A stretch of 47,968 nucleotides of DNA. It comes from Candidatus Omnitrophota bacterium (lineage in GTDB: Bacteria > Omnitrophota > Gorgyraeia > JAFGIU01). The position numbers and the translations under genes were made by a program. Positions 7,819-9,723 of the stretch are shown piece after piece; the stretch's first letter is position 1; the number at the start of each line of letters is the position of its first letter. The stretch is from contig JAFGIU010000001.1 in assembly GCA_016929445.1 (NCBI GenBank), forward strand, positions 1-47,968, read 5' to 3'. The notes under the pieces were generated by a model, which did not search any database, was not told where the DNA came from, and worked only from the letters and a program-made list of their open reading frames with translations.

Positions 7819-8778
7819 CTATCCATAGATCTCGTGGGCTGCCCTCTTGCGCAGGCGCAGGATGCAAAATCCGTCCAAGACCGCGCTGGGCAGGATGCGC
7901 CAGAACTTGCGCGTTTCAGGATGGAGTTCCTTGCCGTCCCAGTGAATGAGCCCCTGCTTGCCGCGAGGCAAGGGTATGTCGAGCTTGTCCACCTCTACCT
8001 GTCCTCCAATGCGTCTCAGGACCCAGTCCAGAACCAACTCATTCTCCTCGGGAGCAAAGGTACACGTGGAATAGACCAGGACCCCACCCGGCCTCAGGGC
8101 ATTAACTCCGGCCAACAGAAGCCTTTTCTGCACTCCGGCCATCTCCTTGATTTTGCGGGGCGACCAATAGCGATAGGACTCCTTCTTCGCCAATAAGAAA
8201 CGGCCTTCGGAACTGCAGGGAGCATCCACTAAGACCCGGTCAAAACAATTTGCGTGAGTACGCCCAAAGGCCGCGCCGTTCTTGAGAGTGCACTGCACAA
8301 TACCCGAGGCTTGCTGCTCCACATTGGCTTTGAGTCTGAAGAACCGCTTCCGGTTCTTGTCATTGGCCACGATTTCTCCGCGACCCTTCATCATGCAGGC
8401 CAACTGCGTGGTCTTGCTCCCCGGGGCCGCCGCCATATCCAGGACCTTCTCTCCGGGCTTCGGATCCAAAATCAACACAGGTAACATGCTGGAGAGCCGT
8501 TGGATATAAATCTCACCGTTGCGAAAGACACTCGTGCTCTGCAAATCGCGTATCGTCCCGGTACGCAAAATAAAGGCACTGGGATACCACGCCACAGGAA
8601 CCGCATCGACTTTCTCCCGGGCCAGGCGGGAACGCACCTCGTCCGGACGCACATCCAGCCAGTTAATGCGAAAGGTGACGGGCTTAGGAACTAAAAATGT
8701 CTGGACAACGGATTCGTAGATATCAGCGGGGAAGATACGCTGCAGGCGCTGCAAAAATTTGGGGGGAAGAGCCGGCAT
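7819..8778 (-). CDS. RsmB/NOP-family RNA (cytosine-5) methyltransferase
   Basis: This 319-residue enzyme of the SAM-dependent m5C RNA methyltransferase family lacks the N-terminal NusB domain of RsmB itself. It contains a short RNA-binding region (1-95), the SAM motif I VLDMAAAPGSKTTQ (112-125), and both catalytic cysteines: Pro187-Cys188 in VDAPCSSEG and Thr238-Cys239 in YSTCTFAPEEN. A basic C-terminal extension (about 275-319) ends the protein. The target could be rRNA or tRNA; sequence alone does not tell. Six bases separate it from an upstream paralogue of the same length and layout, and the two form one operon. Confidence 0.9.
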   Translation of the reverse strand: MPALPPKFLQRLQRIFPADIYESVVQTFLVPKPVTFRINWLDVRPDEVRSRLAREKVDAVPVAWYPSAFILRTGTIRDLQSTSVFRNGEIYIQRLSSMLPVLILDPKPGEKVLDMAAAPGSKTTQLACMMKGRGEIVANDKNRKRFFRLKANVEQQASGIVQCTLKNGAAFGRTHANCFDRVLVDAPCSSEGRFLLAKKESYRYWSPRKIKEMAGVQKRLLLAGVNALRPGGVLVYSTCTFAPEENELVLDWVLRRIGGQVEVDKLDIPLPRGKQGLIHWDGKELHPETRKFWRILPSAVLDGFCILRLRKRAAHEIYG

Positions 8779-8784
8779 AGAAAA

Positions 8785-9723
8785 CTACCGCTTTCGCAGG
8801 CGGGCTAAGAAAAGGCCTTCCAAGACCGCGGAAGGCAACACCCGCCGCACCTTAGACAGCTCCGGCAAATACTCCGTCCCGGACCATTGGCACAGGCCCC
8901 CGGACACATTGGGGATAGGCAATTCAAACTCCTCCAGTTCGACGCGGCCGTCATTCTCCTGGAGCACCGTGTTCACCACAGCCTCGTTCTCCTCAGGCGC
9001 AAAGGTGTTCGTGGAATAGACCAGGACCCCGCCCGGCTTCAAAGCCTGCACACCGGCGCGGAGCAGGCTGAGTTGACCGGGCACCATGGCGCCGATCTCC
9101 TCTTCACTCCAAGACAGATAGGTGCGCGGATCGGCCAAGTAGAAGCGGCTTTCCTCCGTGCTGCCGGCATCCACCATCACCTTGTCAAAGCAATCGCCGT
9201 TGGCAGCGGCAAATTCGGAGGCATCTTGGTGAACGCAGGTTACGTTGCCCGCCTCTTGCATGCGCACGCCCGCACTCAAGTCGCGAAAACGCAGGCGATC
9301 CTTTTCAGCGGCCACTAACCGTCCCTGGCCCCGCATCAAACAGGCCATTTGCGTGGCTTTGGCCCCGGGCCCTGCTCCCAAATCCAGGACCTGCTCCCCG
9401 GGCTGGGGGTCCAGCACCAATGCCGGCAACATCTGAGACAAGGTCTGCACGCAAATATCCCCGCTGCGGAAGCTCGGGGTCCGCTCCAGCTCGCTGATCG
9501 AACCCAGGCGCAAGATAAAGGCCCCCGGGTACCAGGCCACGGGCACAACCTCCAGTCCCTGGGAGGAAACACGCAGCCGGATCTCCTCCGGATGGAGGCC
9601 CGCGCGATTAAGGCGAAAACTCGGGGGTTTGGCAAAGGTAAAGGTCTCCAGGACCGCGATCTTACGGTCTTGGGGAAGGATCTGGCGGAGCCGGTCTAGA
9701 AATTGGCTTGGGATCTCTGGCAT
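8785..9723 (-). CDS. RsmB/NOP-family paralogue lacking both catalytic cysteines (probable pseudoenzyme)
   Basis: This 312-residue protein aligns without gaps to its downstream neighbour over at least the first 240 residues. The two residues that define the family chemistry are changed: the neighbour's Cys188 (VDAPCSSEG) is Ser188 here (VDAGSTEES) and Cys239 (YSTCT) is Asn239 (YSTNT). Motif I is altered but keeps the glycine pattern (VLDLGAGPGAKATQ), so SAM binding may persist. The frame is intact, arguing for a retained role such as a partner subunit or RNA binder. I start at the ATG at 9723, whose sequence (MPEIPSQFLDRLRQ) matches the neighbour's start; the open frame extends upstream but would overlap the divergent mnhE gene. 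Confidence 0.85.
   Translation of the reverse strand: MPEIPSQFLDRLRQILPQDRKIAVLETFTFAKPPSFRLNRAGLHPEEIRLRVSSQGLEVVPVAWYPGAFILRLGSISELERTPSFRSGDICVQTLSQMLPALVLDPQPGEQVLDLGAGPGAKATQMACLMRGQGRLVAAEKDRLRFRDLSAGVRMQEAGNVTCVHQDASEFAAANGDCFDKVMVDAGSTEESRFYLADPRTYLSWSEEEIGAMVPGQLSLLRAGVQALKPGGVLVYSTNTFAPEENEAVVNTVLQENDGRVELEEFELPIPNVSGGLCQWSGTEYLPELSKVRRVLPSAVLEGLFLARLRKR

Follow-up and report, generated by a model that had tools for sequence, protein, structure and literature searches.

A tandem pair of RNA m5C methyltransferase homologues in a Candidatus Omnitrophota bacterium, one of which lacks both catalytic cysteines

Pairs of active and inactive methyltransferases, or fused dead domains, have been established for Gcd10/Gcd14, Kar4/Ime4, RsmC, and DNMT3L (PMC1282579), and DNMT3L was described as an inactive partner in a second source (PMC11514484). 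The roles of both catalytic cysteines and of the motif IV proline in RNA m5C methyltransferases have been reported (PMC6409601), and loss of the release cysteine alone leaves the RNA trapped covalently on the enzyme (PMC6409601, PMC9561284). A sequence-only reading of the DNA analyzed here knew of no bacterial active/inactive pair of the RsmB/RsmF type, and our full-text literature search, in a limited library, likewise found none described. To our knowledge, the RsmB/RsmF enzymes of bacteria are regarded as acting singly.

The window (the whole stretch of DNA analyzed, 47,968 nucleotides; Candidatus Omnitrophota bacterium, GCA_016929445.1, contig JAFGIU010000001.1, positions 1-47,968, forward strand) contains two paralogous genes in tandem, both on the minus strand, with gene A upstream and gene B following, and both ORFs are intact (Table 1). 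The intact frame of A and the operon gap of six bases were as first read, and the gap-free alignment of the two proteins, claimed earlier through at least residue 240, was found by BLASTP to extend over 312 residues, which is all of A (0 gaps, 49% identity). B is in frame with A (TAG TTT TCT ATG), and no Shine-Dalgarno sequence was evident 5′ of the B start. As the A stop lies in frame with the B start two codons on (8776-8787, minus strand), read-through would yield a fused product of approximately 634 residues. Shortly before B begins, the 3′-terminal part of A contains a terminator-like hairpin with a T-rich tail (8836-8815, minus strand), which could serve attenuation or coupling; four terminator-like sites were found in the scan and 2.3 were expected, which is near chance level.

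Table 1. Coordinates of the two genes, the gap between them, and the sites discussed in the text (positions in the window).
Feature	Positions	Strand	Description	Basis
Gene A	8785..9723	-	RsmB/RsmF/Nop2-family pseudo-methyltransferase (putative), 312 aa, without both catalytic Cys	PF01189 111.1 bits; pLDDT 95.2
Gene B	7819..8778	-	TIGR00446 RNA m5C methyltransferase, 319 aa, both Cys present	PF01189 136.5 bits; pLDDT 94.3
A-B gap	8779..8784	-	TTTTCT, 6 bases, from A stop TAG to B start	Sequence
A motif I	9358..9384	-	DLGAGPGAK, residues 114-122; Asp114, Ala117, Pro119, Gly120, and Lys122 of SAM pocket kept	Alignment
A codon 239	9007..9009	-	AAC (Asn), motif VI, replaces nucleophile Cys (B 8062-8064, TGT)	Family Cys 137/139 with residue there
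A codon 188	9160..9162	-	AGC (Ser), motif IV, replaces release Cys (B 8215-8217, TGC); Pro187 to Gly	Family Cys 140/140
A codon 97	9433..9435	-	CAG (Gln), motif X, replaces near-invariant Ser; counterpart of PhNSun6 Ser190 by spacing	Ser 136/139; PMC6393295
A codon 91	9451..9453	-	TGC (Cys), motif X, replaces Tyr/Glu/Phe; otherwise Cys only in homologue L111	Alignment

The profile scores led us to revise the RsmB type named by the earlier reading. B scored 211.9 bits against TIGR00446 (cutoff 210.45) and 154.6 bits against the RsmB model (cutoff 269), and its best subfamily is therefore TIGR00446 (Nop2/RsmF-like). B possesses the PF01189 core above the cutoff, motif I, and the cysteines of DAPC and TC that define the m5C methyltransferase family. 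A scored 156.4 bits against TIGR00446, below the cutoff of 210.45; it shares the homology and fold of the family and lacks the motif VI nucleophile and the motif IV release cysteine. Judged by its sequence, A is a family homologue, and we do not count it among the active m5C enzymes. A and B are the only strong RsmB/RsmF-type proteins found in the genome, the remaining PF01189 matches being weak.

The replacement of the two catalytic cysteines of B by Ser188 and Asn239 in A, as noted from the letters alone, was confirmed (DAGST and STNTF in A; DAPCS and STCTF in B). In the family alignment (139 of approximately 140 fetched homologues, plus A and B), the changes in A included C239N, C188S, P187G, S189T, G192S, and S97Q. 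Sequencing error as the source of the cysteine losses was rejected, as the codons (GGC AGC ACG and AAC in A; CCC TGC AGT and TGT in B) differ by multiple bases at several sites. Ser97 precedes the motif I lysine by 25 residues, which is exactly the spacing between Ser190 and Lys215 of PhNSun6; in the published binding model, Ser190 contacts the phosphate beside the target base, and the S190A variant is nearly inactive (PMC6393295). The losses in A were not significantly enriched at the active site compared with other conserved sites (6/23 vs 13/65, p=0.56), and thus our claim concerns which residues A lost and does not extend to losses confined to the active site. From the family chemistry, A, which has no nucleophile, is very unlikely to make m5C.

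Among all the aligned homologues, Cys188 of motif IV was present, and Cys239 of motif VI was present in all those with a residue there except two, L111 and L052. A pattern scan of 84,980 species for non-Cys residues in motif VI, which covered codons not starting with T and therefore misses TCN-Ser, Phe, Tyr, Trp, and TTR-Leu, gave three matches, two of them by chance and one real (L052). L052 (5977-6012, minus strand) is RsmF-like and carries TST in motif VI (nucleophile Cys replaced by Ser) with PC intact; its contig is labelled as a Staphylococcus epidermidis MAG, and it shares only approximately 30% identity with B in the core. L111, a single copy in genome G307 (L150:8095-9171), has an intact frame and keeps PC, but its motif I has decayed to VFGLCASLGAQ and its motif VI (AAST) is without the cysteine. 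Relatives in the family of G307 that aligned with a residue at the motif VI position have Cys there, and omega=1 was rejected for the L111 branch too. Judged by its sequence, L111 is pseudoenzyme-like and independent of A, in a different family of the same class. The two proteins share a Tyr91-to-Cys change, and near-invariant Ser97 is changed in both, to Gln in A and to Lys in L111. Because loss of the release cysteine alone traps RNA, inactivation is expected to begin with the motif VI cysteine; L111 and L052, which lack only the motif VI cysteine and keep that of motif IV, and A, which lacks both, agree with this order of loss, and the pattern is informative in that it fits the harm of losing the release cysteine alone.

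The pair was sought in related genomes, as the sequence-only reading had proposed, and it is known from one genome only. No second tandem pair was found in several hundred genomes, comprising 384 of the class, 384 of the phylum (overlapping), 49 of the neighboring class, and 37 of the family of G307. A search of the source's order returned its own genome only, and scanning the proteins of 84,980 species yielded no relative. A family match was present in 68 of the 221 high-quality genomes of the class; most lack the protein, and the RsmB/RsmF-type family is therefore dispensable in the class. One homologue (L102, genome G330) contains an in-frame TGA.

A and B were recovered as sisters with a support of 0.992 in FastTree and with a bootstrap of 99 and an SH-aLRT of 96 under the LG+C20 site-mixture model, and the tandem duplication is therefore specific to the lineage of the source. 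Peculiarities common to both proteins, such as the absence of the family Lys42, agree with this origin. Gene conversion between A and B was considered and rejected, as no tract of strongly raised identity was present. The end branches (LG+C20) were 0.96 for A and 0.42 for B, so that the A branch is approximately 2.2 times as long.

Purifying selection on A, which had been proposed as a check, was supported by the rejection of omega=1 in five codon-model fits with four outgroup sets (2dlnL 13.7-21.2; p 4e-6 to 2e-4), for one A sequence from one genome. The omega values of the A branch (0.015 to 0.17) are unreliable owing to near-saturated synonymous sites, only the rejection of 1 being stable, and they average the entire branch, including any time before inactivation. 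When neutral drift was simulated from B until 60-70% of the residues were left, the sequences acquired 4 to 5 stops on average and 99-100% of them carried stops; at the divergence of A, neutral drift would give approximately 3-5 stops, and A has none. At sites where B matches the outgroup consensus, A retains 52 of the 65 conserved sites (80%, outside the active site) compared with 24 of the 43 variable sites (56%; p=0.01). Polarized codon-position counts were uninformative owing to the low conservation of third positions among the outgroups. A has been kept as a protein over at least most of its branch, and recent relaxation is possible.

These results bear directly on the possibility that A is a decaying duplicate, which was inactivated, released from constraint, and is being lost. 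The longer A branch, the common gene losses in the class, and the occurrence in one genome only, with an inactivation that could be recent, are consistent with decay. Against this, omega=1 was rejected in all five fits, A has neither stops nor frameshifts where neutral drift predicts several stops, the structure is predicted to be intact, conserved positions beyond the active site are kept, and several independent active-site changes argue for a long stay in the inactive state. We consider decay unlikely, although it is the rival that survives best, and the same evidence supports the retained pseudoenzyme of the sequence-only reading.

A keeps the counterparts of the PhNSun6 cofactor pocket outside motif I as well (E140, D167, and D185, in addition to D114, A117, P119, G120, and K122), and Q217, Y236, T238, and E245-N246-E247 are also retained. 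Most of the SAM pocket thus appears to be retained in A, as read from the alignment. B has Asn at residue 167 (8278-8280, minus strand), a SAM-pocket position of motif III that is Asp in A and most homologues. The AlphaFold models had a pLDDT of 95.2 for A and 94.3 for B with identical secondary structures, and the best PDB matches of the A model were Nop2 (in pre-60S particles), PH1374, and RsmF, with TM scores of 0.8-0.9 to Nop2 and RsmF; the fold of A is therefore predicted to be intact. The two proteins differ in charge: A has a pI of 5.17, the lowest among 134 homologues, and a net charge of -7, whereas B has a pI of 9.90 (rank 133 of 134) and a net charge of +19. Family-basic positions lost in A are 148, 150, 173, 208, 209, 211, 216, 218, 256, and 283. 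The contrast in charge between A and B may simply follow from loss of RNA binding.

The fold matches raise the alternative that A is a stand-alone, non-catalytic factor for ribosome assembly or RNA folding, as Nop2/NSUN1 is apart from methylation. The yeast Nop2 double-Cys mutant grows normally without m5C, the protein and not m5C being needed for pre-rRNA processing (PMC4510066), and human NOP2 C513A rescues rRNA processing (PMC9561284). The viability of the yeast mutant implies that a catalytically dead member of this family can still serve as a useful protein, and the best fold matches of A include Nop2 within pre-60S particles. The loss of Ser97 and of ten basic positions, together with the lowest pI of the 134 homologues, makes the usual RNA surface unlikely, however, and we regard such a factor as improbable. 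The same evidence (S97Q, the many lost family-basic residues, and the pI) weakened the RNA-binding regulator that had been suggested from the letters alone; as a role for A, it is less likely than a protein partner of B.

Our preferred explanation, held tentatively, is that A is a retained pseudo-methyltransferase and most likely a non-catalytic protein partner of the co-operonic B. A partnership of the two proteins is suggested by the operon order, the sisterhood, and the opposite charges. A tandem duplication in the bacterium's own lineage would have left B with RNA m5C catalysis. In A, the nucleophile of motif VI, the release cysteine of motif IV, and the grip on the substrate RNA would have disappeared, while the fold and the greater part of the SAM pocket persisted. 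The two would be co-translated from one operon, and acidic A would bind basic B. A may then stabilize B, tune its activity, or set its substrate choice, by analogy with DNMT3L, Trm6, and the dead domain of RsmC. The occurrence in one genome only, the roughly twofold faster amino acid evolution of A, and the dispensability of the family in the class count against this explanation. In a stronger and improbable version, the m5C methyltransferase would be an obligate heterodimer of A and B, with A taking no part in the chemistry on the substrate and using its retained SAM pocket to sense SAM and switch B on or off; if true, this would be a two-subunit m5C enzyme of a kind undescribed in bacteria.

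The arrangement of the genes admits another role for A, in which its ORF is mainly a translational leader and B, without a ribosome-binding site of its own, is translated by coupling to A. The six-base gap, the lack of a visible Shine-Dalgarno sequence for B, and the hairpin with its T run at the end of A are compatible with coupling, but such a role would preserve the frame and not the amino acids, and neutral protein evolution was rejected; terminator-like sites also occur near chance level. We consider a leader role decidedly improbable. Least probable of all is an enzyme with altered chemistry, for example with Cys91 as the nucleophile or a non-cytosine target. Cys91, new in A, is the one respect in which the objection named by the sequence-only reading, a cysteine supplied elsewhere in the active site, might apply. 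The largely kept SAM pocket and the occurrence of Cys91 only in A and L111, both without Cys239, are in favor of such an enzyme. Against it, two cases are few, A lacks the motif IV proline and cysteine and the substrate serine, and L111 has lost SAM motif I, so that Cys91 is unlikely to serve SAM-dependent methylation there and a common loss of active-site constraint is simpler than a relocated nucleophile.

If A is indeed a retained pseudo-methyltransferase partnered with B, the dead sister would extend to the RsmB/RsmF family the active/inactive pairing seen in Trm6/Trm61 and DNMT3L, and A/B would offer a small, testable system for the transition from a methyltransferase to a partner protein. 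Compared with the TIGR00446/PF01189 enzymes (RsmF, PH1374, aTrm4, and Nop2), the pair agrees in whole length, in fold, in the order of the motifs, and at most invariant residues, and B fits fully, whereas A is acidic and without the motif VI nucleophile, the motif IV release cysteine and proline, and the substrate Ser97.

RsmC, the 16S m2G1207 methyltransferase, likewise combines a dead copy with an active one, both derived from a single methyltransferase by duplication. Its dead domain is the N-terminal one, as A precedes B, and it has lost SAM binding, while A seems to keep most of the pocket. RsmC is, however, one polypeptide of another family and another chemistry, whereas A and B share a reading frame and are parted by a stop and two codons. 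Trm6/Trm61 (Gcd10/Gcd14), METTL3/METTL14, and DNMT3A/DNMT3L are active and inactive paralogues acting as heteromers, and A and B are likewise a pair of paralogues, one member being without catalytic residues and retained by selection. Those pairs are eukaryotic, belong to other families, and are proven partners, whereas the partnership of A and B is inferred. The catalysis-independent role of Nop2/NSUN1 lies within the same family and concerns a protein that is useful without its cysteines; there, one protein performs both jobs, whereas A and B would divide them between paralogues.
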